Shown here: in pieces, positions 4,442 through 37,796 of the stretch | How positions within the stretch are numbered: the stretch's first letter is position 1 | Layout of the letters: every line of letters begins with the position of its first letter | Source: a virus | Virus record (IMG/VR): IMGVR_UViG_3300021960_000168 | Coordinates: 1 to 41,844 of that record | DNA length: 41,844 nucleotides | Strand: one strand, 5' to 3' | Program-made: the position numbers and the translations under genes | The notes under the pieces: generated by a model | Seen by the model: only the letters and a program-made list of their open reading frames with translations | What the model was told of the DNA's origin: nothing | The model's database searches: none

Positions 4442-5629
4442 ATGGACCGTATCTTTCTTCTCCACTGCACTGTGTCTGCTTCTGTGCGTCAGACTACCAA
4501 GATTGAATTCAATGATCTTGGTTTACCTGAGCAAGTTATTGAAGCCTTAGCTAACCAACAGTCAATTCCTGTTAGATCTAATCTTTCAGGGAAACTTAAA
4601 GAACACCTAAGCAGGATTAGGACTGAACAAAGAAAGTTGTATGACGAATGTACTATCAGCAACGGAGACATTCACTTCTTACACGAATCTTGCTTTGATA
4701 AAGCCAATGATCAAATAATGAAGATCCGTATGCTGGCCGAGCAATCAAACGCTGAGCTCGCGGATTTGTGGTTCGAGGAATATCAAAGTTGGGTGACAAT
4801 GGTTGGAAACTTTGTTGAACCGATCTTTGTGAACGATCCCGAAGGTAAACAGATCGCCACGGATGCTTATTTGAGTATGTTCCCCACTAAGGATGAGTTC
4901 TCCAACCCAATTGAGGTTTTTGTGGTGGGGCCTAACCCAATCCGTATGGAAGTGTCCAGCTCAAAAGAGGAGCACGGATTCTTAGAAATAGATCATGTGG
5001 GCATTGCTAACACTTCTGAAGTACTTGAAGCAGCTCAACATTCAGCTGCAGATCGAGCACTTGAAAAAGCTGCTGAACTTCTCGATGATCTAGACACCAG
5101 AGCGTCAAACCGTGTGAAAGAAAGGCAAACAGGAACTTCTAAACGAAGGGGATCCTGGGAACTTACTGCCGAGAAACTGGAGCTCATAACCAAACACTGC
5201 CCTGGGTTTGACGAGCTGTCAATCCTATGCCGCAAACTAATTGAAAACGGAGTTGCGTTACAAACCACTCAAGGTCTGGCGAAAGTAGAAGCAATGAAAT
5301 GTTTTTCTACGACAAAGGTCAAGATCAGAGAAGAACTCAAACAAATTGTCTTAAAGCGGGATACAACTGATGGCATTGAAAGTGTCAAAAAATCTTTAAG
5401 CCTATCAGGCACTTACAGGGATTTGGTTAGTCGGATCTCTGTGGCAGAGAGTGAAGAAGAACTTTTCTCTATTGAGGAAGAGCTTAGGATTGAAACCTCG
5501 GTTTACCATCAACGGGCGAAGCACCTTCAAAAGCTATTTGATCAAAGAACTGAATTAATCTCTATCCAAAGTGGATCTATTGCCAAAGCTTTGGATGAAA
5601 TCAAAAACATTAACAACCCCGATTTCTAA
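4442..5629 (+). CDS. DUF3150-like partner of the RavA/ViaA-type operon (395 aa)
   Basis: The protein is long, mostly helical and charged, with heptad-like stretches near residues 195-225 (AADRALEKAAELLDDLDTR) and 300-380. The start (RIFLLHCTVSASVR...IEFNDLGLPEQ) resembles the opening of DUF3150 proteins, which in plasmids and mobile elements sit beside a MoxR/CobS-type ATPase and a VWA protein. That gene order is exactly what is found here, so the assignment rests as much on context as on sequence. Its stop codon overlaps the ATPase start by one base, indicating coupled translation. No catalytic motif is visible; a scaffold or adaptor role is inferred. Confidence 0.45.
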   Translation: MDRIFLLHCTVSASVRQTTKIEFNDLGLPEQVIEALANQQSIPVRSNLSGKLKEHLSRIRTEQRKLYDECTISNGDIHFLHESCFDKANDQIMKIRMLAEQSNAELADLWFEEYQSWVTMVGNFVEPIFVNDPEGKQIATDAYLSMFPTKDEFSNPIEVFVVGPNPIRMEVSSSKEEHGFLEIDHVGIANTSEVLEAAQHSAADRALEKAAELLDDLDTRASNRVKERQTGTSKRRGSWELTAEKLELITKHCPGFDELSILCRKLIENGVALQTTQGLAKVEAMKCFSTTKVKIREELKQIVLKRDTTDGIESVKKSLSLSGTYRDLVSRISVAESEEELFSIEEELRIETSVYHQRAKHLQKLFDQRTELISIQSGSIAKALDEIKNINNPDF

Positions 5630-6804
5630 TGAACGACACTCTTTTCACAAACCTACAAAACTTTCGAGCTTCACTTAACGCAAGGTTTCTTGAACGTGAA
5701 GATGTAATTGACGGAGTACTTGCTTCCCTTATTACACAACAAAATACATTCTTGTTTGGAGTACCGGGTACAGGTAAAAGCGAACTTGTAAAAGAAATTT
5801 CTAAAGGATTTAAAGGCAGTGCTTATTTCGGTTATCTTCTTTCCCCAACTGCAGATCCGTCAGAGCTGTTTGGTCCTGTTGCAGTAAGCAAATTGCTTAA
5901 GGATGAGTACACCAGAGATACCGAGGGCTATCTTCCATCGAGTAATATTGCATTCCTCGATGAGTTGTTTAGAGGGAGCAGTGCTGTGCTTAACAGTTTG
6001 CTAACAATCCTCAATGAGAGAACATTTAATAACGGTAGAGAAGTTATAACAACACCAATTCAATCTATTGTAGCCGCGACTAACTCTTTCCCTACTGAAG
6101 AGTCTTTAGCCGCGTTCTGTGACAGGTTTCTCTTTCGGCCCACGGTTGAGCTTCTTAAGAAACCTACCTCTAAGCGCCGATTAGACACATGGGCAGTTAA
6201 TGCTCAAGAGCGACCAACAGTTGAATCAAATTTAGTATTTAAAGATCTCCTAGCGCTTCAAAAAGACCTTGAAAATATAGCTGTTAGTGAGGAGTTTTTA
6301 GATAAATTTGGGCAAATTATGGACATGCTTAATAATCGAGGAATCTCTGTTTCTGATCGACGTCGGGTTCAAATTCTTAAATTTATGAAAGGATGGGCAG
6401 TTGTTCAAGGTGATGATCAGATACATCCAGAACATCTTCATCGTTCACTCAAACATATTGTTTATAAAAATACAGACGACATAAACGTAATTAAAGAAGT
6501 TCTAGAACAAGTCGTTCCTACAAATAGCAAACTTATTGCAGATCTAAAACGTATTCACAGCGGAGTGCTTGCAGAGTTCCATTCTGTTCATAGAGGGGAG
6601 GCAAAAACTGTTACTGAGTTAAATAAATTTGTTATACAACTTAGAAAAATGCACAAAGACTTAGCCATATGCGAAGAGAGGTTAGACAGGATTCTTTCAG
6701 ATCGACTGACTATGGAAGACCGTAAGTCAGCAATGAGACTAGGTAGAGAGGTAAACACATCTATGACAGCAGTTATAAAATCAATCTCTGAGGTTGAATC
6801 ATGA
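5629..6804 (+). CDS. RavA/MoxR-type AAA+ ATPase (391 aa)
   Basis: The AAA+ core is complete. Walker A is GVPGTGKSE (near residues 44-52), Walker B is IAFLDELF (near 106-113), sensor 1 is VAATNSFP (near 147-154), and CDRFLFRP (near 164) supplies the arginine-finger region. The segment YLLSPTADPSELFGPVAV and the ILNERTFNNG insert are characteristic of the RavA branch of MoxR ATPases. Family members are hexameric ATPases that act with a VWA partner to remodel or assemble other complexes. The C-terminal 180 residues are helical. The gene overlaps the VWA gene by ATGA at 6801, so the two products are probably made together. E. coli RavA is longer (498 aa). Confidence 0.85.
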   Translation: MNDTLFTNLQNFRASLNARFLEREDVIDGVLASLITQQNTFLFGVPGTGKSELVKEISKGFKGSAYFGYLLSPTADPSELFGPVAVSKLLKDEYTRDTEGYLPSSNIAFLDELFRGSSAVLNSLLTILNERTFNNGREVITTPIQSIVAATNSFPTEESLAAFCDRFLFRPTVELLKKPTSKRRLDTWAVNAQERPTVESNLVFKDLLALQKDLENIAVSEEFLDKFGQIMDMLNNRGISVSDRRRVQILKFMKGWAVVQGDDQIHPEHLHRSLKHIVYKNTDDINVIKEVLEQVVPTNSKLIADLKRIHSGVLAEFHSVHRGEAKTVTELNKFVIQLRKMHKDLAICEERLDRILSDRLTMEDRKSAMRLGREVNTSMTAVIKSISEVES

Positions 6805-8339
6805 ATACAAAAAACGATTTTCTTAGGCTTGCAGAAGCAGATCCACTCGTTCTAAATGTCTCTGCACTAGGCAGTTTTCTCTGGGATGATTTTGTAAGAG
6901 ACTCCATGCCTCAAATTAAATACATCGAAGAACTTTATGATTTAAAACAACTATCTCGTTTTGGAAAAGAACTTTTTGATTACATGTATAACGGAGGAGA
7001 GGTGACTACGTTGGTCAGTCTTGACGATGTTGAACAATATTTTCAAGCTAAGCAGGACGAAGAGGAGCCAGATTATCCCAAAGGGTACAAACCAGAAAAC
7101 GCATTTTGGCTGAATCTTTTTTCCGAGATCTGCAACAGTGCCGCGTGGAATGAGCTTATTAAATACTCAGTAGGAGACCAGTTTATTTCTGGTAATAACG
7201 CAATGAATATTCTCAACGATTTAAGCAAGCTTATACAGAAACAAATTACAGACGGTGAGCTGCCTGATGATCTAGGTAAGGTTCAAAAGGAACTTGAAAT
7301 AATTAGAAACGAATTTACTGAAGCAAGGAAGAGAGGAGATTTAAAACTTGCCGCTGAAAAGAGAATTAAAGGTAAGGATCTTGTAAAACAAACCGAATCA
7401 CTGTCTAAAAAAGCTGTCGAACAGTTAAAACCTGAAATTGAACGCAGCGTTGACAAAGTCAAAGAAGAAAGCAAGGATTTAAAGGAAGCCTTTAAGCAAC
7501 TTGCAGGTTGCCACGCGGGAGTGGGTACACATCTAAATGACATAAACGAAAAGAAAAAACTTTCAAAAAAATTTAAACAAAACAAAAATTTGAGACAACT
7601 CATTAAAAAACTTGGAGCACTTAGGACAGCTTGGAGAGAAAGAAAGAAGGCTGTTGCAGCGAGAAGTAATTACTCCGATATTGTCGGTGCAAAATTCTCT
7701 AATGAGGTAGTCAAAGCATTCCCCACGGAGCTCGCTCTCACTGGCACAGAAGCAGGTAGAGCATTATTTGCTCTCAAGTATGCTCAAAAAACAATTCTTA
7801 CTAAAGACTACGAGGCTAAAACCAAAAACTTATGCAAAGGTCCTGTAGTTTTATACGTAGACATAAGCGGATCAATGATGGGACTAACAGAGACATGGTC
7901 AAAAGCTATTTCTATGGTTGTCGCAGAAGATTGCTTACAGCAAAAGAGAGAAGTACAGATTCATCTTTTTGATACTTGTATCCAGAAAAGCATCACTCTC
8001 CAACCAGGTGGGAAAGATAATAATGAATTACTGGATTTCATTCTGTCCTGGGTTACCCAAGGTGGAACGAGTTTTGGAGCTGTGCTTGACCACGCGATGA
8101 GTAAAGCGGTTATTAGGGAAAAGGCGGATGTGTTGATGATTACAGACGGTCAATCTCAAGTCTCCGAAGCATATTTAAAACGGATTAAAGAGTTTAAATC
8201 CACTAAAGGGATTCAATGGACAGCTTTTGTAATAGGTGTGGAAGATCACTGGTGTTACAAATTTTGTGACTATGTACACGATGTTGACGTCAACTGCGAA
8301 GCCTCAAACGCAAAACTGTTTCAAGAGTCTTTACGTTGA
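6801..8339 (+). CDS. ViaA-like VWA-domain protein (512 aa)
   Basis: The C-terminal domain (from about residue 345) is a von Willebrand A fold with an intact metal-ion site: DISGSM (near 353-358), GGTSF (near 424-428) and MITDGQ (near 447-452). The N-terminal half is helical, with charged coiled-coil segments from about 160 to 290, similar in layout to E. coli ViaA (483 aa). ViaA-type proteins partner the RavA ATPase and carry its substrate-binding metal site. Gene order and the four-base overlap with the ATPase gene support that pairing. The target in a phage infection cannot be read from the sequence. Confidence 0.8.
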   Translation: MNTKNDFLRLAEADPLVLNVSALGSFLWDDFVRDSMPQIKYIEELYDLKQLSRFGKELFDYMYNGGEVTTLVSLDDVEQYFQAKQDEEEPDYPKGYKPENAFWLNLFSEICNSAAWNELIKYSVGDQFISGNNAMNILNDLSKLIQKQITDGELPDDLGKVQKELEIIRNEFTEARKRGDLKLAAEKRIKGKDLVKQTESLSKKAVEQLKPEIERSVDKVKEESKDLKEAFKQLAGCHAGVGTHLNDINEKKKLSKKFKQNKNLRQLIKKLGALRTAWRERKKAVAARSNYSDIVGAKFSNEVVKAFPTELALTGTEAGRALFALKYAQKTILTKDYEAKTKNLCKGPVVLYVDISGSMMGLTETWSKAISMVVAEDCLQQKREVQIHLFDTCIQKSITLQPGGKDNNELLDFILSWVTQGGTSFGAVLDHAMSKAVIREKADVLMITDGQSQVSEAYLKRIKEFKSTKGIQWTAFVIGVEDHWCYKFCDYVHDVDVNCEASNAKLFQESLR

Positions 8340-27692: not shown

Positions 27693-28079
27693 TTATGCGG
27701 TCTTCGGAAGAAGAAGCGTTTCATATTCCAGCCAATCGGTAAGCATTGGAAGGGAGGATTCTATTTCTTGCTGGTTAACCCAGTCAAGAATTTTTTCTTC
27801 CCTTTCGATTGTCCAAAAGTCTTGACTCCTGTACCACACGAACCACGGTGTGTCGCTTTTTATTAAGTTACACTCACCGCAGCAACCAACAAGGTTGTGG
27901 CGCTCGTTTTTACCACCTTTTGACTGAGCTAAAACGTGATCTAACGTACTGGGTTTTGGGCGTCCGCAGTACGCGCAATCAGGCCACTTATCGAGAATAC
28001 TTTTTCTAAACCTCTTACGAGCAGACCGTTTCTGTAAACAACAAAGGTTGAATACAAGATCATTCTCGCTCACAGGCAC
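27693..28079 (-). CDS. HNH endonuclease (128 aa)
   Basis: The HNH core is clear: CAYCG (near 36-40), then LDHVLAQSKGGKNERHNLVG with the D-H pair and the N of the HNH motif, and CCGECNLIKSD completing the second zinc-binding Cys pair. Enzymes of this type nick or cut double-stranded DNA; those in phages are often homing endonucleases or packaging-associated. The N-terminal helix is basic. The start is GTG 28079, with a further in-frame GTG two codons on. Confidence 0.8.
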   Translation of the reverse strand: MPVSENDLVFNLCCLQKRSARKRFRKSILDKWPDCAYCGRPKPSTLDHVLAQSKGGKNERHNLVGCCGECNLIKSDTPWFVWYRSQDFWTIEREEKILDWVNQQEIESSLPMLTDWLEYETLLLPKTA

Positions 28080-28132: not shown

Positions 28133-29983
28133 TTAAATTGTCTCAAGAATAAGAAGACCAGAAGAGGAAACTGCTTTAGCAATAGGACGCCAAGGAAAAG
28201 AAGGATCTGCACTCCAACTTGAAGGTTCACCTGAAGCAGTCGTATATCCACTTGTAGTTGGATCTACGTAATAGAAATACCCTGTAGATAACCCAGTATT
28301 ATTGTAACCAATAGAACGAGGAACATTAATAGTTACTGGCTCTCCGCTCGCCACGGTTGTTTGAGCGCTGCCAATAAAGTTGTTTCGAGAAGAAATTGTG
28401 GGAAGAGTTGAGGAACCAGGAGCACTAACTACGGCAGTGCCGTAATCCGAGTTGCCGTTGTCTCGGTAGGCGATGACAATTCGATTGTTGGTGGTGTCGT
28501 AGGTGGTGGAGATGTAGGGGGAGTAAGCAGATTCAAAGACAACTGGGGACCCGAAGGAAATAGATGTGCCAGAGACAGTGCCAACGATTGCGGTGCCGTA
28601 GTTGGAGTTGCCGCCGTCTACGTAGGCGATGACGACTCGGTTGTTGGTGGTGTCGTAGGTGGTGGAGATGTGGACGCAGGCAGCAGATTCAAAGACAACG
28701 GCGGTGCCGAAGGAGATTGATGAACCAGAGACTGTGCCGACGATTGCGGTGCCGTAGCCGGAGTTGACGTTGTCTTGATAGCCGATTACGACTCGGTTGT
28801 TGGTGGAGTCGTAGGTGGTGGAGGTGTAGGAGCAGCTACCAGACTCAAAGACAACGGCGGTGCCGAAGGAAATAGATGTACCGGAAACTGTACCGACAAT
28901 TGCAGTACCGTAATATGAGTTTCCGATATCGCTGTAGGCGATGACGACACGGTTGTTGGTGGTGTCGTAGGTGGTGGAGATGTCGTAAAGGGAAGCAGAT
29001 TCAAAAACGACGGCAGTACCAAATGAAATAGATGTGCCAGAGACTGTACCGACAATTGCAGTACCGTAATATGAGTTGCCGCCGTCTGAGTAGGCGATGA
29101 CGACTCGGTTGTTGGTGGAGTCGTAGGTGGTGACGGTGTAGTTGGAGCTAGCAGACTCAAAGACAACGGCGGTGCCGAATGAAATAGAGGTGCCAGAGAC
29201 TGTGCCAACAATGGCAGTGCCGTAGAAGGAGTTGCCGCCGTCTTGATAGCCGATGACGACTCGGTTGTTGGTGGTGTCGTAGGTGGTGGAGATGTAGTTG
29301 GAGGTAGCAGATTCAAAGACAACGGCGGTGCCGAAGGAAATAGAGGTGCCAGAGACGGTGCCAACGATTGCGGTGCCGTAGCTGGAGTTGCCGTCGTCTC
29401 GGTAGGCGATGACGACTCGGTTGTTGGTGGTGTCGTAGGTGGTGGAAGTGTAGGTGGAGCTAGCAGATTCAAAGACAACCGCAGATCCAAAACTTCTACT
29501 ATTTACATCAGTAACATTAGTAATAACACTAGCTTTACCTGCATCATCCAAACCAACAGGATTACCTGCTTGAATAACACTGGAAGCTGTTAGTTCTACA
29601 GAACTACTACTCGAAAAATTAACTGCAAGATCTAACGCGGCATTACCCGAAGCAAGGGCAGTATTTGCATTTGATTGAGCTGCCACACCGCTGGCCAAAG
29701 CAATCGCAGAATTACTAGAACCAGCGACCCCAGAAGCTAATGCAGCACTTGCAATTACAAGATCGGCACCATCCATACCGATAGAATCGCCGACAAAAAT
29801 TACACCGCTAGCGCTAGAAGCAAGTGCAACATCAAGTCTTTTATTACCAGTCTGTAAATCTCCACCACCAACTAGGCCACTACCAGCGGTAATGGAACCC
29901 AGTGTAGCTCCTTCAGCTACATCACCTGTAGGTAGCTGACTGAGCTGCCCGTCTACGTAAACAAGAGGGAGTTTCTCAGCCAT
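28133..29983 (-). CDS. Tail fibre with seven-repeat propeller domain (616 aa), paralogue 1
   Basis: The N-terminal 165 residues carry a fibre-like start (GSGLVGGGDLQTG) and several ASG-rich segments (ALASGNAAL), probably a trimeric shaft or attachment part. From about 167 to 530 are seven copies of a ~52-residue unit of the form (A/P)VVFES...TYD(S/T)TNNRVVIAY.D..NS.YGTAIVGTVSG(T/S)SISFG. Seven near-equal beta units predict a seven-bladed propeller. The last ~85 residues form a conserved tip (YYVDPTTSGYTTASGEPSSW). Two neighbouring genes have the same layout. The likely role is receptor binding. Confidence 0.8.
   Translation of the reverse strand: MAEKLPLVYVDGQLSQLPTGDVAEGATLGSITAGSGLVGGGDLQTGNKRLDVALASSASGVIFVGDSIGMDGADLVIASAALASGVAGSSNSAIALASGVAAQSNANTALASGNAALDLAVNFSSSSSVELTASSVIQAGNPVGLDDAGKASVITNVTDVNSRSFGSAVVFESASSTYTSTTYDTTNNRVVIAYRDDGNSSYGTAIVGTVSGTSISFGTAVVFESATSNYISTTYDTTNNRVVIGYQDGGNSFYGTAIVGTVSGTSISFGTAVVFESASSNYTVTTYDSTNNRVVIAYSDGGNSYYGTAIVGTVSGTSISFGTAVVFESASLYDISTTYDTTNNRVVIAYSDIGNSYYGTAIVGTVSGTSISFGTAVVFESGSCSYTSTTYDSTNNRVVIGYQDNVNSGYGTAIVGTVSGSSISFGTAVVFESAACVHISTTYDTTNNRVVIAYVDGGNSNYGTAIVGTVSGTSISFGSPVVFESAYSPYISTTYDTTNNRIVIAYRDNGNSDYGTAVVSAPGSSTLPTISSRNNFIGSAQTTVASGEPVTINVPRSIGYNNTGLSTGYFYYVDPTTSGYTTASGEPSSWSADPSFPWRPIAKAVSSSGLLILETI
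29529..29590. repeat. 62-base segment identical to 31734-31795
   Basis: The same 62 bases occur in the genes of two propeller fibres, encoding the junction before the propeller (around residues 131-152 of the first protein). The rest of the genes is much more divergent at DNA level, which points to recent recombination or conservation of this junction. Confidence 0.7.
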
Positions 29984-30023
29984 TACTACTACCTAGTTTA
30001 TTTTATTTTATCCGATAAACTTA

Positions 30024-30308
30024 CTATTCAGTTTCTAGTTCTACACGAGGGTCAACCCAATCAGGATTTAGGACCCAGCCACCAGCGTCCGTAAAAGTGT
30101 ACTTCCAACCGAACCAATCAGTAGGCTCAGTAACACCTTCATTCAACACGCAGTTGGATGTGGTGCAATCCATGATGTACAAATCAGGATTACTAGGATC
30201 GCCAATCGTAGTTTTATCCGACTCAATCAGAATCTGTTTGTCGTCGGCATACAGGTATACACTAACGTTCGGGACTTGAAAGTCACCCAGGCGGCAAATA
30301 GTTTTCAT
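30024..30308 (-). CDS. Hypothetical fibre-region protein (94 aa)
   Basis: I use ATG 30308 (MKTICRLGDFQVPNV); the frame runs on to a GTG at 30323. The product is beta-rich and acidic with several Trp and Asp residues (DWFGWKYTFTDAGGW) and looks like a small chaperone- or tip-type protein. It lies between two propeller fibre genes. No family is recognised. Confidence 0.55.
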   Translation of the reverse strand: MKTICRLGDFQVPNVSVYLYADDKQILIESDKTTIGDPSNPDLYIMDCTTSNCVLNEGVTEPTDWFGWKYTFTDAGGWVLNPDWVDPRVELETE

Positions 30309-30340
30309 GAGGCTCTCGAGCACTAAAACAGTGTAACCGA

Positions 30341-32191
30341 CTAAAGCATATCAGTCAGCAACAAGGTAGTGGAGTTAACCGCTCGGCCAACCACCCCCCA
30401 GTTAACTGCTCCAGACCACGAGGGCGGTTGGGTCGATGTTGTAGTAAATCCGCTGGTTGTCGGATCAACGTAATAACCAGAGCCAGCGAGTAAGCCAGTG
30501 TTGTTTTGATCTGGCGAACCAGGCAAGCGTACTGATACTGCTGCACCGCTTGCCACGGTGGATTGAGAGATACCGATAAAGTTGTTGGCTGAGTTTAATG
30601 TTGGGAATGTAGATGATCCTACGGAACCCACAGTGGCCTTTCCGTCGGAAGTGTTAGTGTCGTCTGTGTAGCTAATGACAACTCGTTGATTAGAAGAGTC
30701 GTAAACGCAGCCTATACCAAGGACAACATTAGAATCAAATATAACAGAAGTACCAAACCCAATAGTTGTACCAGAAACAGTGCCAACTATAGCTGATCCG
30801 TAGTTACCGACAGATGGATCTCGATAAGCAATTATTACTTGATTAAGAGTTGAATCATAAGCAGTAGCTTCATAAGTAGCTGTATTAGCTAGAAACTCAA
30901 CAAAAGTGCCAAATGTTATAGATGTACCAGAAACGGTACCTACAATCGCACGACCACTAGGTAGCCCAGTATATGCATAATAAGCAATGACTATTTTCTG
31001 ATTAGAGGAGTCATAGACTACCGGCATGTCTTGAGTGTAGGTAGTTGAAAAAACTACTGGACTACCAAAACTAATAGATGTTCCGGAAACAGTACCGACG
31101 ACTGCAGTACCGTAATTTGAATTTCCGACGTCTCTATAAGCTACAACGACTTTGTTGTTAGTAGAGTCAAATCCAGCGTGAAGGTCATTAGTATCACTAG
31201 TTGAAAAAACTACTGGACTACCAAAACTAATAGATGTTCCAGAAACCGTACCTACTATGGCAGTGCCATAGTCGCTATTATTTCGATCTTCGTAAACAAT
31301 GACAACTCGCTGACTAGAGGAGTCATATGTAATGTCCGCATCAGCAGTTGTGTGTGAGTTAAAATCTGTGCTGCTGCCCCACGTACTACTTGTACCGGAA
31401 ATTGTGCCCACAATTGCAGCGCCGTAATTAACACCACTAGCGTCCCGTGAGTAACAAAAAACCACTTTATTGTTAACGGAATCGTAAGTTACACCATGAG
31501 GTGTGGACCATGAGGACTCAACAACAACTTTAGTACCATAAGAAATAGATGTACCAGAAACAGTGCCTACAATTGCAGTGGCGTAATTGGAGTTTCCTTG
31601 ATCTGAGTAAATAATAACAACCTTGTTATTAGCAGAGTCGTAGACTGATGTACCCAACTGGGCATTTCCACTATCGAAAGTAACAGGAGTGCCAAAACTT
31701 CTTTGGGTACTGTCCTCAAGAGTAACAACAACTCTAGCTTTACCTGCATCATCCAAACCAACAGGATTACCTGCTTGAATAACACTGGAAGCTGTAAAAG
31801 TCTGAATAGCACCAGCAGGCTTTGCAGCGATATCAACCAGAGCAGCATTACCACTAGCTAGAGCAGTAGCGGATATAGAAATAGCAGCGTTACCGCTTGC
31901 TAATGCATATTCTGCATTTTCTAGTGCTTGATTCCCACTGGCTAATGCGGTTTGTCCTGTACGCAGAGCAGAACCGTCATTTGCCAGTTTATTGCTGACA
32001 ATAATTAAACCACTGGGGTTTGGAGCTATAGCAACGTCTAACTCAACAACCTCTCCTAGATTTCCAGCACCATCTACTGCAACACCACTGCCAGAAACTA
32101 TATTTCCAGGAGAAGCACCTACAATCGTGTCACCAGGAGGTAGCTCAGTCCGAAGGCCACTAACAGAAACAACAGGACGCCGGAGTACCAT
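30341..32191 (-). CDS. Tail fibre with seven-repeat propeller domain (616 aa), paralogue 2
   Basis: The layout is the same as its neighbours: a short N-terminal domain, ASG-rich segments (ALASGNAAISISATALASGN), seven propeller-like units and a conserved tip (NNTGLLAGSGYYVDPTTSG). The units are more divergent than in the other two copies, for example KVVVESSWSTPHGVTYDS and FVEFLANTATYEATAYDS, while the GTVSGTS turn is kept. Loop positions vary most, as expected for a binding surface. The duplication suggests several receptor specificities. Confidence 0.8.
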   Translation of the reverse strand: MVLRRPVVSVSGLRTELPPGDTIVGASPGNIVSGSGVAVDGAGNLGEVVELDVAIAPNPSGLIIVSNKLANDGSALRTGQTALASGNQALENAEYALASGNAAISISATALASGNAALVDIAAKPAGAIQTFTASSVIQAGNPVGLDDAGKARVVVTLEDSTQRSFGTPVTFDSGNAQLGTSVYDSANNKVVIIYSDQGNSNYATAIVGTVSGTSISYGTKVVVESSWSTPHGVTYDSVNNKVVFCYSRDASGVNYGAAIVGTISGTSSTWGSSTDFNSHTTADADITYDSSSQRVVIVYEDRNNSDYGTAIVGTVSGTSISFGSPVVFSTSDTNDLHAGFDSTNNKVVVAYRDVGNSNYGTAVVGTVSGTSISFGSPVVFSTTYTQDMPVVYDSSNQKIVIAYYAYTGLPSGRAIVGTVSGTSITFGTFVEFLANTATYEATAYDSTLNQVIIAYRDPSVGNYGSAIVGTVSGTTIGFGTSVIFDSNVVLGIGCVYDSSNQRVVISYTDDTNTSDGKATVGSVGSSTFPTLNSANNFIGISQSTVASGAAVSVRLPGSPDQNNTGLLAGSGYYVDPTTSGFTTTSTQPPSWSGAVNWGVVGRAVNSTTLLLTDML

Positions 32192-32225
32192 AATTTTGTG
32201 ACCTTTAAATACACTTTAGCCTGGG

Positions 32226-34085
32226 TCAGATTGACTTGAGCAACATCAAACCGCTCGAAGTAACGGCGCGACCGATATAGTCCCAGGGAACTTGACCATC
32301 CCAACTAGCAGGTTTAGTTGATGTTGTTGTAACACCACTAGTTGTTGGATCTACGTAATAAAACTCGCCAGGTGTAAGACCTGCTGTTGGGTCTGTGTAC
32401 AAAGCTCCAGGTAAATTAACGAGGCAAGGAGAGCCACTCGCCACGGTGGATTGAGAGATGCCGAGAAAATTAGTGTATGAGTTTATGGTCGGTCTGGAGG
32501 TGGTTGCGCCGAGAGTATTAGCTACGATGGCAGTACCATAATTTGCATTACCCTCATCTCTGTAAGCTATAACAGCGTTACTGTTAGTAGAGTCGTAAGT
32601 AATGGATACGTCCTGAGAAACTGCGGACTCAAACACAACAGCAGTAGCAAATGAAATAGAGGTACCGGATACGGTTCCAACAATTGCTGTACCGTATTCA
32701 CTATTACCTGCATCTCTGTAAGCAATAATAACTTTACCGCTACTAGAGTCGTATGTAGACGTAATATCATACACACCAGAAGCTTGAAATTGAACTAAAG
32801 TACCAAAGGAAATAGAGGTACCAGAAACAGTACCAACAATAGAAGTACCGTAATATGAATGCGCACCAGCTCTATAAGCTATAACAACTCGATCATTTGT
32901 GGAGTCGTAAGTGCAGGAAGAGCCAACCATATCACTAGACTCAAATACAACAGCAGTACCAAATGAAATAGATGTACCGGAAACTGTACCGACAATTGCA
33001 GTACCGTAGCTGGAGTTGCCGAAGTCCCGATAGGCGACGACAACACGGTTGTTGGTGGAGTCGTAGGTGGAGGAAAGGTAGTTGGTGTTAGCAGACCCAA
33101 ATACAACAGCAGTACCAAATGAAATAGATGTACCAGAAACTGTACAGACGAGTGCGGTATTGTAACCACCAGCTGCGGCATCATTGTAGACTATAACGAC
33201 TCGGTTATTTGTGGAGTCGTAAGTAGAAGAGGTGTCGAAAGTAGTAGCAGCTTCAAAGACAACGGGCGAACCAAATGAAATAGATGTACCGGAAACTGTA
33301 CCGACAATTGCAGTACCGTAGCTGGAGTTGTTAACGTCGGAGTAGGCGAAGACAACTCGATCATTTGTGGAGTCGTAGGTGGAGGAAAGGTAGTCGGTGT
33401 TACCCGACTCAAAAACAACTGCAGTACCGAATGAAATAGATGTACCGGAAACTGTACCGACAATTGCAGTACCGTAATATGAGTTTCCGACATCGGCGTA
33501 GGCGATGACGACACGGTTGTTGGTGGAGTCGTAGGTAGTAGAAATACGTTGAGAGTTAGCAGATTCAAAAACGACTGCAGAACTCGGAAAACTTAGCGGA
33601 TTACTCGTAACTGTAAGACCAATACTCTGTACCTTACCTGCATCATCTACGCCCACGGAATAGCCGGATGCAACAGCACTAGCAGCTGTAAGCACAGCAG
33701 TAGGGCCACCGCCAACAAGAGTTGGTACTAAATCGAGAGCTGCGTTTCCGGAAGCAAGTGCCCCGACTGCAGTCGAAAGTGCAGCATTACCTGAAGATAA
33801 TGCAGTAAAACTTTCGGTGTTTGCCTTGTTACCCGAAGCAAGTGCAATAGTCGCGTTAACGGAAGCTACACCATCATTTCCAATAGTGTCTCCGACATAA
33901 ATAACTCCACTGGGGTTGGGAGCGACTGCAAAATCAAGCCGAATATTAGGGCCAACACTACCGCCGCCAACCAGACCACTTCCTGCGACTAATTCAGTCG
34001 AAGATCCTCCGGTTTGTACCAGATCTCCTTGAGACAGTTCGGAAACCAAACCATCTTCGATAACTAAAGGGCGGCGGCTGACCAT
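32226..34085 (-). CDS. Tail fibre with seven-repeat propeller domain (619 aa), paralogue 3
   Basis: The third copy again has exactly seven units (AVVFESANSQRISTTYDS and so on, ending TSRPT) between an ASG-rich shaft and a YYVDPTTSG tip. Three residues longer than the others, it differs mainly in N-terminal and loop regions. Its product likely forms a homotrimeric or single fibre arm with receptor-binding propellers. The three genes are consecutive apart from a small gene between paralogues 1 and 2. Confidence 0.8.
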   Translation of the reverse strand: MVSRRPLVIEDGLVSELSQGDLVQTGGSSTELVAGSGLVGGGSVGPNIRLDFAVAPNPSGVIYVGDTIGNDGVASVNATIALASGNKANTESFTALSSGNAALSTAVGALASGNAALDLVPTLVGGGPTAVLTAASAVASGYSVGVDDAGKVQSIGLTVTSNPLSFPSSAVVFESANSQRISTTYDSTNNRVVIAYADVGNSYYGTAIVGTVSGTSISFGTAVVFESGNTDYLSSTYDSTNDRVVFAYSDVNNSSYGTAIVGTVSGTSISFGSPVVFEAATTFDTSSTYDSTNNRVVIVYNDAAAGGYNTALVCTVSGTSISFGTAVVFGSANTNYLSSTYDSTNNRVVVAYRDFGNSSYGTAIVGTVSGTSISFGTAVVFESSDMVGSSCTYDSTNDRVVIAYRAGAHSYYGTSIVGTVSGTSISFGTLVQFQASGVYDITSTYDSSSGKVIIAYRDAGNSEYGTAIVGTVSGTSISFATAVVFESAVSQDVSITYDSTNSNAVIAYRDEGNANYGTAIVANTLGATTSRPTINSYTNFLGISQSTVASGSPCLVNLPGALYTDPTAGLTPGEFYYVDPTTSGVTTTSTKPASWDGQVPWDYIGRAVTSSGLMLLKSI

Positions 34086-34109: not shown

Positions 34110-34616
34110 CTAACTAAAGAGGTCCACAGGGGGTTGAATTTCAACGTGCAGTTCAGTAGTACTGACTGCAAGTCCGAGATTGACGAGGGCAGCGTATCCA
34201 CTTCCAGCCGAAACAGTACCTGAAGCAGTACTAAAGCGAGTGAGCTGGCCTTGCGATTTAGACAGATAGTAGTACTGACCAGGAGTGAGCTGAGTATCTG
34301 CTGTGATATTTGCTGCACTAACAACAGCAATATCGTCGAGATTGACGGAAACAGTTGCGTTTTGAACAGCTGCTTGTGCAGTAAGTCCGACTGCCTGATG
34401 TTGGGCAGAATCCACGCCGCTCACTGCAATGGCAGGAACTGCATAAACTCCACTGACATAAACAACTTCACCTTGAATAAGGTTAGCGCCAGCTGTTAAG
34501 TTTATTAGTGACGTAGGCGAAGATGAGGTTACACCGCCGCCATTCACAAGAAAGACAGGAGTATCCCCTGGCTGAAATTCAGTATATTTTCGATTAAAAA
34601 TCGCCCGGTTAGTCAC
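34110..34616 (-). CDS. Beta-rich fibre or decoration protein (168 aa)
   Basis: Strand-turn segments dominate (NLIQGEVVYVSG, AVGLTAQAAVQ, QYYYLSKSQGQLTRFS), with Gly/Ser/Thr content typical of phage decoration or fibre-attachment proteins. The protein at 37802-38281 has a similar pattern (NAVYVTSAGL, GIAADTV, LSPGDFRFLS), so the two are probably distant paralogues. It may form a fibre base or knob. No precise family is assigned. Confidence 0.6.
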   Translation of the reverse strand: MTNRAIFNRKYTEFQPGDTPVFLVNGGGVTSSSPTSLINLTAGANLIQGEVVYVSGVYAVPAIAVSGVDSAQHQAVGLTAQAAVQNATVSVNLDDIAVVSAANITADTQLTPGQYYYLSKSQGQLTRFSTASGTVSAGSGYAALVNLGLAVSTTELHVEIQPPVDLFS

Positions 34617-34755: not shown

Positions 34756-35265
34756 TCAAGTGGTTGGTTCGGGCGGCCACTCGACAGTCCAGGGGAAGCC
34801 TGACTGCTCGGGGACCATTCTTAAGGTCTCACGATAGAGAGCCCAAGCATTTTTGGCATCAGCATTCAGAGGAGAATCTGTAAGCTGGGTCCAGTCACAT
34901 TCAGTTAGTTTCTTGTTACGTTGGTCACGTACAGAACTTGCCTTACTTGCATCTACGCTCGCTTCATACTCAGCTTGCTTATGCAGTGCAGTAGTTACAA
35001 CACCGTCCTCATCAACAGAGTCAGTGAAAATAGGACCTACTATGTAACGTGTGAACCACTTACCCTCGATCTCTTCAACGCCCGATCGGACGCTGGTTTC
35101 ATAAGGAGAAGTAGTAGAGGCTTGTGGTCCTTCAAAAACAGGGTCCACGCCAAAATTGTTCATCGTTTCACGGCTGATAACCTTGGGAAACGAAGTGTTT
35201 GGGTGGCGACGACGGAATTCAAGATCCGAAATCACCTCGCCAGTTTCGCGAATACGTAATTCCAT
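34756..35265 (-). CDS. Tail fibre assembly-type protein (169 aa)
   Basis: The C-terminal half carries a pattern common in phage tail-assembly proteins: RDQRNKKLTECDWTQLTDS, then NAWALYRETLRMVPEQSG, then FPWTVEWPPEP. Such proteins help fold or attach tail fibres or cover the tail tip. The N-terminal part (ETGEVISDLEFRRRHPN) matches their usual start. It sits directly upstream of the other fibre genes in the transcript, a usual place for such a chaperone. Confidence 0.65.
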   Translation of the reverse strand: MELRIRETGEVISDLEFRRRHPNTSFPKVISRETMNNFGVDPVFEGPQASTTSPYETSVRSGVEEIEGKWFTRYIVGPIFTDSVDEDGVVTTALHKQAEYEASVDASKASSVRDQRNKKLTECDWTQLTDSPLNADAKNAWALYRETLRMVPEQSGFPWTVEWPPEPTT

Positions 35266-35286: not shown

Positions 35287-37179
35287 TTAGGCAATCGCCA
35301 AGAAGAGATAAGTACCTCCACTAGCGTTCATGCCTACAGGCGCTGATGATGTCACTGTAAATCCAGAACTCAACGGGTCGATGTAGTCGGTATTTGTGAC
35401 TTCTGCTGCACTACTGTTGAGGAGCAAGTACGGATCATTGCCACTGGCAATTCCTCGCGCTGAGTCGTAAACGTACCAATCACCAGTGCTGTCGGTGCGT
35501 TTGATTAAAATAAATCGTGCGCCTGCACTGAAGCCGCAGTCAACGTTAATTGCATTACCTGTTCCGGTGTAAGAGCCTACTTTGGATATGCCGGGTAGGG
35601 TTGCGAAGAGGTAGGCGATCATGTTGCCAACATTATTACTGGAACCAAAAGCAGCTACACCAAACGATGTGGACGTTGGACCGGAGGCTCCCCAGTAGTC
35701 TGCAATTCCAACATTGCCATTAGTTGTACTCAAAAAGAGTACGTTGCCGCGACCCCCCGGCTGTGTATAGACAGTCCAACTTTCGCCCGAGACTGAGCGT
35801 GATTTGGCGATTATCAACTCCGGCGTTACACCAAGCCCGTGAGTAATGGACGTTGAGGCGCTAGCAGTCCACGCCACCACGTCGAAGAAGCCGGGGGCGC
35901 GGCGGAACTGCCAGTTAATTGTCTGAGCACCACCCCAGAAAGTGTCTGTGCTAAAACTGTTTTGCAAGTCAAACTTGAAATACAGACTTCCTGCTGATTC
36001 TGCGCTGTTAGCAGTGGAACTCGTGTAACCGTTAGTTAGTCTCGGCACCCAATACTTAGAGCCAGTCGAACCCGTCTGACAGTCAATGTGCAAGTCAGTG
36101 GGAAAGCCGACGCTAAATGGTTGCGAGGTAGTCAAGGCACTGTCAAACACCTCCGTCCCAGCAGTCGGCGGCTTATGCGGACGGCGGATTGCTATGTAGA
36201 TGTAGGTAGCGCCAGGATCATTCTGAGATCCATTAGTAATGAAACCAGTAGGAGTAAGATCACCAAATACATTGCCTGCGATTTCTGCAACATTGGTATT
36301 TGCTTCTAGCTGTGCGTCAACTCCACCAACAATCATGCCACGCATTATATCATTCATTCTCCACTCACCAGTGCCAGTAGTTTTTTTGGTAATCAAGAAC
36401 TGAGGCTCAAAACCTAAGTCTACGGATTGAGCACTGCCTGTCGCCGTATAGCTCCCACACTTAATAATGCTTTCATCTTCATTCGTGCCAAACGATGCGT
36501 CGTCATGAGCGAAGACGTAGGCGACATATGTATCACCATTGGTATTTACATCATTAATAGTTCCTAACGTAAAATGAGTGCTAGTAGGAGCCGTGTTATT
36601 CCAATAGTTAGCACTGGGACCTACTGCCGCATTTGCAAGATCTAATATTACTGCTTTTGTCGCACCTAGACTTCGATGATAAACAAGCCAATTAGTTCCT
36701 GCAGTACTAGTACACTTGACCATTATCATGCCAGGAACACTGCCTAGCGAATGGGCAACAGTTCTACCTGCAGTACCATTTCCTGTATAAGTAACTACAT
36801 CAAAGAACCCCGGCGCTTTGCGGAAAGTCCAAGAGGCGTAGGTGACGTTTAGTGCGTTGACATTGCCGTCATTGCCAGGAACAGTAAACCCGTTTGTATC
36901 AAAGACAAAAGAAAGTTCGGTACTTTCTCCGTTAGGGAGATTACTATAAAGTCTCTTACTAGCACCTCTCGCAGTGTCTACCAAATTGTGCAGGCCTGCA
37001 CCACGCGTTTTTACCCAAACAAGCCCGCCTTCTGAGCTTAAATCAATGCCGTTACTGATGACATTATTTGTTGGATCAGTGCCGGTATACAGAAACGTAC
37101 TAAATACATCATCAACGTAAGTTGCACCACCAGCAGCCCCGGCAGCACCTTGAATTAAACGTAGAGTAGTAGGATCCAT
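35287..37179 (-). CDS. Large tail fibre protein with DUF7483-like repeats (630 aa)
   Basis: The protein has two or more repeats built from segments such as APGFFDVVTYTGNGTAG and APGFFDVVAWTASASTS, followed by H(S/G)LG-x-(V)P(G/E)-(M/L)IM and strands with Trp and Tyr. This repetition resembles the DUF7483 region found in fibre-type proteins of marine phages. A short Gly/Ala run lies at the N-terminus (GAAGAAGG). It would form an extended fibre or spike that contacts the host. The exact family name is from memory and should be treated as provisional. Confidence 0.65.
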   Translation of the reverse strand: MDPTTLRLIQGAAGAAGGATYVDDVFSTFLYTGTDPTNNVISNGIDLSSEGGLVWVKTRGAGLHNLVDTARGASKRLYSNLPNGESTELSFVFDTNGFTVPGNDGNVNALNVTYASWTFRKAPGFFDVVTYTGNGTAGRTVAHSLGSVPGMIMVKCTSTAGTNWLVYHRSLGATKAVILDLANAAVGPSANYWNNTAPTSTHFTLGTINDVNTNGDTYVAYVFAHDDASFGTNEDESIIKCGSYTATGSAQSVDLGFEPQFLITKKTTGTGEWRMNDIMRGMIVGGVDAQLEANTNVAEIAGNVFGDLTPTGFITNGSQNDPGATYIYIAIRRPHKPPTAGTEVFDSALTTSQPFSVGFPTDLHIDCQTGSTGSKYWVPRLTNGYTSSTANSAESAGSLYFKFDLQNSFSTDTFWGGAQTINWQFRRAPGFFDVVAWTASASTSITHGLGVTPELIIAKSRSVSGESWTVYTQPGGRGNVLFLSTTNGNVGIADYWGASGPTSTSFGVAAFGSSNNVGNMIAYLFATLPGISKVGSYTGTGNAINVDCGFSAGARFILIKRTDSTGDWYVYDSARGIASGNDPYLLLNSSAAEVTNTDYIDPLSSGFTVTSSAPVGMNASGGTYLFLAIA

Positions 37180-37184
37180 TTATA

Positions 37185-37796
37185 TCAAGTTGTGTAGTCA
37201 ACAAGAGAAGACGCACGCCAAGTAGATCCTGTGTCGTCAGTGACAAACATGAATAAATGAGTCTTCCCTGTAGTTAGGGTAGGAGCAGTATCTGCGGGCC
37301 ACTTAATTGAACTATCCCAAGTAATCGTGCCGCCAGTGTGCTCAACTTCATAAGCCAAGCTGTAAGAAGCAGCAGGATAAGGACTGATAAAGGTTACAGT
37401 TGAATCAGTGCTTAGAGTGGCAGTAAAGTAATTACCTGAGGCCACGGGTATGCCGCTTCCGTTTGCACCCAATGCAGTAACAACGGAACGGAGCTGACCG
37501 TCAAGAATACCACCTGAAATAGCAAGTTTGGTATTAGCAGTAGTCTCCGCCGCAGCTGCATCAACAAGCGCAGCGTTACCAGAAGCAAGAGCAACACCGG
37601 CATCAACAAGCGCAGCGTTACCAGAAGCAAGAGCTTCGTGAGCTAAATCTCCACTCGCACTAGCCGCATAACGTACATCGAGAACACCAATATCTACTCG
37701 CTGGTTTGTAGTGCCAGAGGCTCTAACGATCGGGAAGAAGTCACCACTTGCAACCGTTGTGATCGCACCTAAGTCCGAAATCTTTTGGCTAGCCAT
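37185..37796 (-). CDS. Tail fibre protein with ASG repeats (203 aa)
   Basis: The N-terminus (KISDLGAITTVASGDFFPIV) is a typical cyanophage fibre start. Residues about 47-80 contain three ASG-type repeats (EALASGNAALVDAG, VALASGNAALVDAA) like those in the propeller fibres, suggesting a shared trimerisation shaft. The C-terminal part is beta-rich (YSLAYEVEHTGGTITWDSSI) and looks like a small binding head. It lies five bases from the DUF7483-like gene. Confidence 0.65.
   Translation of the reverse strand: MASQKISDLGAITTVASGDFFPIVRASGTTNQRVDIGVLDVRYAASASGDLAHEALASGNAALVDAGVALASGNAALVDAAAAETTANTKLAISGGILDGQLRSVVTALGANGSGIPVASGNYFTATLSTDSTVTFISPYPAASYSLAYEVEHTGGTITWDSSIKWPADTAPTLTTGKTHLFMFVTDDTGSTWRASSLVDYTT

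Follow-up and report, generated by a model that had tools for sequence, protein, structure and literature searches.

What does a phage do with three consecutive fiber genes whose products each carry the same number of internal repeats? The question is raised by an uncultivated virus contig (IMG/VR record IMGVR_UViG_3300021960_000168; 41,844 bases, called here the window), in which three tandem minus-strand open reading frames (ORFs) encode proteins of 619, 616, and 616 amino acids (aa). We refer to them as slot A (P0003; 32226..34085), slot B (P0002; 30341..32191), and slot C (P0001; 28133..29983). Each was delimited by its ORF together with repeat and profile analysis, supplemented for slot B by a structural model, and pairwise end-to-end identity among the three is about 51 to 61%. 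A reading of the letters alone (the original prediction) had proposed that the repeats form seven-bladed propellers that bind receptors. Here, we report that the proteins are best explained as a stem, a cement-like platform, and a swappable propeller adhesin, present at three slots, an explanation that we consider likely as a whole.

Seven repeat units and their predicted fold

Self-identity at a lag of 52 residues was 0.48, 0.26, and 0.37 in the three proteins, compared with no more than about 0.15 at lags unrelated to the repeat. Exactly seven units were found per protein, spaced 52 residues apart throughout except for one interval of 53 in the middle protein, and a hidden Markov model (HMM) built from the 21 units recovered the same seven in each (about 66 to 93 bits per unit), in agreement with the seven ~52-residue units first counted by eye. 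From the unit boundaries, units 1 to 7 occupy 32496..33584 in slot A, 30602..31696 in slot B, and 28400..29491 in slot C (all minus strand). Searches of PDB sequences gave no match at E values up to 1 (P0001) or up to 10 (profile), and the Pfam matches of the raw proteins (Cyclophil_like2, GDH_2nd, and others), which span 25 to 40 residues inside the repeats, were dismissed as brief or composition-driven. As judged from sequence searches, the propellers would constitute a new sequence family, having no convincing counterpart in Pfam, PHROG, or PDB sequences.

The slot B protein was modeled as a monomer with AlphaFold2 from 27 aligned sequences. The predicted local distance difference test (pLDDT) score was about 95 over most of the repeat array, which was modeled with four strands per unit; the N-terminus (residues 1 to 77) was of low confidence, with a single long helix at about residues 74 to 123. 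Foldseek returned 370 solved matches to this model at E values up to 0.001, and the seven-bladed Photorhabdus PLL/PHL lectins aligned over their full length (template modeling score by target length [TMt], 0.74 to 0.79; root mean square deviation, 4.0 to 6.9 Å). Read from the sequence, each unit runs D-A-B-C in the usual strand lettering. The array opens with a lone outer strand D (FGSAVVFES), with no A-B-C ahead of it, and the last unit ends after strand C (YGTAVVSAPG), so that the first strand would be able to complete the last blade (3+1 closure). The same 3+1 ring closure has been described for the receptor-binding protein (RBP) of phage phi11 (PMC4901313).

Viral contigs were scanned for relatives using either one protein or an alignment as the query (11, 69, and 80 loci, overlapping), and 22 further loci came from genomes and metagenome-assembled genomes (MAGs); one scan of viral metagenomes confirmed at least 302 viral stretches as carriers of the family. 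Among 150 complete unit-bearing ORFs, 111 had seven units, 17 had fourteen, and one had twenty-eight, giving multiples of seven in 129. All 17 fourteen-unit proteins showed a wider spacing after unit seven (61 to 95 residues versus about 52) and, on this pattern, are read as two propellers in tandem (7+7). Counts of four to six were put down mainly to divergent blades that escaped detection or to incomplete genes, as judged by span, weak scores, and gene truncation; three genes with a clean six remained (loci L004, L125, and L134). In L004, a phage sharing 98% identity with the window, slot C has units 2 and 3 fused in frame, and the switch from one to the other falls inside a 24-base shared stretch. 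That is little sequence for an assembler to collapse on, so genuine loss of a unit is the more likely origin, and such loss probably occurs. Variation in unit number had been named in advance as evidence against a propeller; it is seen only mildly, in the three clean sixes, and multiples of seven dominate.

Related repeats also occur outside the viral contigs. A Euryarchaeota MAG contig (L088:2337-9386) encodes a protein of 2,350 aa whose 28 units fall into four sets of seven and apparently form four consecutive propellers. Aquimarina genomes (L098 and L100 to L102) have related propeller repeats on large cellular contigs, one of them in a 1,652-aa protein, and these are probably not phage fibers.

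AlphaFold2 confidence, full-length Foldseek matches to seven-bladed propellers, the 3+1 repeat phase, and homologue counts at 7, 14, and 28 together give strong support to a closed seven-bladed propeller as the predicted fold of the array, and on this point the original prediction is supported.

A split platform and three slots

The repeat array interrupts another domain. The segment before it begins FTASSVIQAGNPVGLDDAGKA, and the segment after it reads NNFIGxxQSTVASG...YYVDP...W..IGRAV. Comparison with homologues, together with the AlphaFold2 model for slot B, placed the first half of this platform at 33585..33710 (slot A), 31697..31816 (slot B), and 29492..29608 (slot C) and the second half at 32229..32495, 30344..30601, and 28136..28399, respectively (all minus strand). 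In six homologues, the stem is the same but no propeller is present, and 9 to 12 residues join the two platform halves. The closest empty/filled pair, both in slot A, consists of the empty L022 (247 aa) and the filled L021 (624 aa), whose DNA is 92% identical before and 89% identical after a 1.1-kb difference. AlphaFold2 modeled the empty protein with a domain at residues 129 to 247 (pLDDT, about 85 to 95) whose strand order is that flanking the propeller in the full-length model. The propeller, as judged from alleles and models alike, is a cassette inserted in one loop of a small platform domain. The shared flanks first noticed as shaft and tip are indeed common to the three proteins, but the "tip" is the second half of a domain begun before the repeats and not a separate terminal knob.

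Among the leading Foldseek matches to the platform, almost every one was a decoration or cement protein from a phage head (Adjutor, HFTV1, phiCD508, TW1, Sf11, the phi29 gp8.5 base, and SHP), at E values of 2e-3 or weaker. One empty homologue passed the cut-off for Phage_cement_2 (PF09956; 24.2 bits versus 24.0); 4 of 29 members matched at E values up to 0.1, and the window proteins themselves did not exceed the cut-off. Profile and fold scores, weak but agreeing, suggest that the platform is probably a cement-type domain. Seven more ORFs have the same ends around an insert of 380 to 415 residues without recognizable units; one such insert group matched the propellers in a profile comparison (96% probability; E value, 1.9e-9), and a second comparison gave a probability of 49%.

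Ahead of the platform lies an N-terminal attachment module with the helical stem (residues 1 to 118), at 33732..34085 in slot A, 31838..32191 in slot B, and 29630..29983 in slot C (all minus strand). It was assigned from its presence across ORFs and, in slot B, from the modeled helix. The module was found in 104 ORFs, 76 of which have quite different C-terminal parts. Adjacent pairs of 501- to 504-aa fiber proteins at six loci (L033, L035, L040, L042, L059, and L073) carry the module without propeller or platform and consist almost wholly of ALASGNAAL-type repeats.

The gene order A, B, C is kept in relatives, with each slot filled, empty, or occupied by another insert; for example, slot A is empty and slots B and C are filled in L022, while L026 has slot A filled and the other two empty. 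Among 24 genes assigned to slots, both the N-terminal and the C-terminal part had their nearest neighbor in the same slot in all cases (24/24), a figure that mainly means that the two ends agree, slots having been assigned from end similarity. The independent result is that for the propellers: the nearest neighbor was in the same slot in only 11 of the 24, and mean identity was 50.5% within slots versus 50.4% between them. Two mosaics were found. In slot C of L006, the ends have 85 to 100% DNA identity to slot C of the window and the center mostly 82 to 98% to slot B of the window, with switches near residues 140 and 535 to 540; in slot A of L014, the source type is slot C of L010. By these comparisons, three fixed positions are marked out by the ends of the genes, and propellers are shuffled between them and between phages. 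As for a diversity-generating retroelement, no reverse transcriptase was found among the 29 window ORFs compared with PHROGs, a scan outside which template repeats and small ORFs fall.

Variable loops, function, and virion location

Variation within blades was measured over seven homologous propeller pairs as the ratio of nonsynonymous to synonymous substitution rates (dN/dS), with the loops delimited by sequence pattern and topology. It was 1.06 in the DA loop (unit positions 10 to 17) and 0.39 in the BC loop (31 to 38), where changes were concentrated at 31, 33, and 37; values were 0.17 for the AB turn, 0.06 for the CD turn, and 0.11 for the strands. Entropy over 203 units had the same pattern, and the conserved strand cores and variable loops foreseen in the original prediction were thus recovered. 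Four-stranded blades place their DA and BC loops together on one face of a propeller, opposite the AB and CD turns. By this assignment, taken from general propeller topology and set beside a monomer model, one face of the propeller would be diversifying, from blade to blade as well as from phage to phage, and the other held.

In the mechanism that we infer, the N-terminus would attach the protein, a helical stem, probably trimeric, would extend from it, and the cement-like platform at the end of the stem would carry the propeller. The propeller would be the adhesin, its variable DA/BC face probably binding a host-surface ligand. Homologous recombination through the conserved platform flanks would swap propellers between slots and phages, leaving some slots with none, and exchange through the platform would let a phage change its adhesin with assembly unchanged. 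Receptor binding by the propellers is likely. A tail location for the proteins is likely too, on the basis of gene neighborhood and family names. The fold matches make sugar ligands, as foreseen in the original prediction, plausible, without motif support. We also lean, with less assurance than for the architecture, toward a combinatorial adhesin system in which three positions share one insertion point and whole propellers are inserted, removed, or exchanged independently of the fiber and tuned by blade loss and loop mutation.

Several observations weigh against the explanation as a whole. Clean six-unit genes exist, the faces of the loops come from general topology, and a cement-like platform is compatible with attachment to the head. 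None of the known lectin or sialidase binding motifs was found in the three propellers: Asp-box (S-x-D-x-G-x-T-W), FRIP-type, and VCBS/integrin-type DxDxDG cation motifs are lacking, and tryptophans number 0, 2, and 0, PLL-type sugar-site tryptophans being almost absent.

The strongest alternative, unlikely though not negligible in our estimate, is that the proteins are head fibers or decorations, with the platform seated on the capsid and displaying propellers for weak, reversible sticking rather than for receptor-triggered tail binding. The cement and decoration proteins that lead the platform's fold matches, the phi29 head-fiber base among them, speak for it, as do the homologue above the Phage_cement_2 cut-off and the many relatives with only ~40 to 60 residues before unit 1, which leaves little besides the platform half. 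In the window, however, the platform stands at the C-terminal end of the stem, a tip position and not the attachment end, and its fold scores are weak. The N-terminal module is joined to several different C-terminal parts, as happens in tail fibers, and the neighboring genes encode a tail-fiber assembly chaperone (34756..35265, minus strand; PF16778, E value 6.3e-21; PHROG tail fiber assembly) and proteins matching tail-fiber families, among them one that matches tail-fiber PHROGs (37185-37796). Another neighbor (35287-37179) encodes a protein with DUF7483 domains in Pfam; both genes are on the minus strand, as are the fiber genes. A literature search found nothing on head-displayed propellers or on propellers in pelagiphages.

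That the propeller is an enzyme, such as a sialidase-like or other glycan-degrading depolymerase, is improbable. Phage endosialidases do use propellers, and bacterial sialidases and glycoside hydrolases top the Foldseek list by E value, but their TMt of about 0.35 to 0.6 is below that of the lectins, Asp-box and FRIP-type motifs are missing, the blades are near-equivalent, none in slot C standing out as catalytic, and variation is spread across all blades. An open beta-solenoid or string of beads with no ring, which near-identical tandem beta units can also build and to which the six-unit homologues might point, is scarcely credible beside a unit length and strand number that suit blades, the 3+1 repeat phase, the quantized unit counts, the full-length propeller matches, and the presence or absence of the whole array as a single insert.

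Gene neighborhood, known systems, and significance

Beside slot A, a GTG-started minus-strand gene (34110..34616) encodes a free-standing platform relative of 168 aa, which matched the platform profile stripped of propeller columns (21.2 bits over residues 37 to 158), has neither N-terminal module nor propeller, and keeps the same placement in relatives; a cement or capping role is possible. Directly downstream of slot C lies an HNH endonuclease gene (27693-28079, minus strand). Free-standing endonucleases adjoining fiber genes are able to bias exchange, and this one may have a bearing on propeller swapping. Between slots B and C, a gap of ~350 bases kept in relatives holds a 99-aa ORF (30024-30323, minus strand) that had no match in Pfam and PHROG scans and is perhaps a small fiber-assembly protein. 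The other gene block of the phage contains an adjacent ATPase (PHROG 19600; 4.8e-71) and VWA-domain protein (PF05762, CoxE-like) at 5629-8339 (plus strand), a pair resembling the MoxR/VWA chaperone pair. The label "cyanophage" in the original prediction is unsupported: the best matches of the DNA polymerase are Pseudanabaena phages at 29% identity, with unrelated phages close behind, so no host call is made.

Receptor-binding propellers are known in phages, with five blades in phi11, a distorted five in PRD1 P2, and seven in phiKZ gp131C (PMC4901313). The last (PDB 4GBF, the C-terminal domain of gp131, as cited in PMC4901313) is a seven-bladed tail-protein propeller proposed to be a receptor-binding domain. 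PDB searches gave no sequence match to it, and PMC4901313 reports it neither as a platform insert nor as one of three exchangeable paralogues. Staphylococcus phage phi11 gp45, a trimeric RBP, likewise has a coiled stem followed by propellers and an N-terminal strand closing the ring but has five blades, a cavity resembling that of an enzyme, and a tower at the C-terminus in place of a split platform (PMC4901313). Photorhabdus PLL/PHL (PMC12203525) provide the best full-length solved fold, with seven similar blades and potential multivalent binding, and differ in being non-phage proteins with sugar-site tryptophans and ~10 to 12% identity. Phage cement and decoration proteins (PF09956; TW1, HFTV1, phiCD508, and the phi29 gp8.5 base) resemble the platform by profile and fold, whereas the window platform sits at the stem end and is interrupted by a propeller, and scores are weak (best fold E value, 2e-3). 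In Lentibacter phage vB_LenP_ICBM2, AYP28108.1, annotated as a hypothetical protein, has related repeats between two platform-like halves but is single copy, with a different N-terminus and divergent blades. The adjoining gene (AYP28110.1; L083:3276-4487) has different repeats of ~43 to 44 residues in five or so copies, possibly a second propeller type.

Continuous propeller amplification from single blades has been documented (PMC9218822), and propellers with different numbers of identical blades have been studied (PMC6805158). What is new here is the sequence family, the placing of its propeller inside a cement-like platform, and exchange across three slots; the fold alone was already known.

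Modular exchange of phage fiber tips is well known. In this family, the unit exchanged is an entire closed propeller, as predicted, set in a loop of a second domain, and alleles that are empty, filled, or swapped occur at the three orthologous positions. Phages whose fibers differ almost only in the propeller form a natural experiment in which host range could be compared, and the isolated Lentibacter phage vB_LenP_ICBM2 is a laboratory entry point. Naming the family, which is widespread in viral metagenomes, would annotate many "hypothetical" proteins of environmental phages. Propeller swapping looks like a natural route by which a phage changes what it sticks to.

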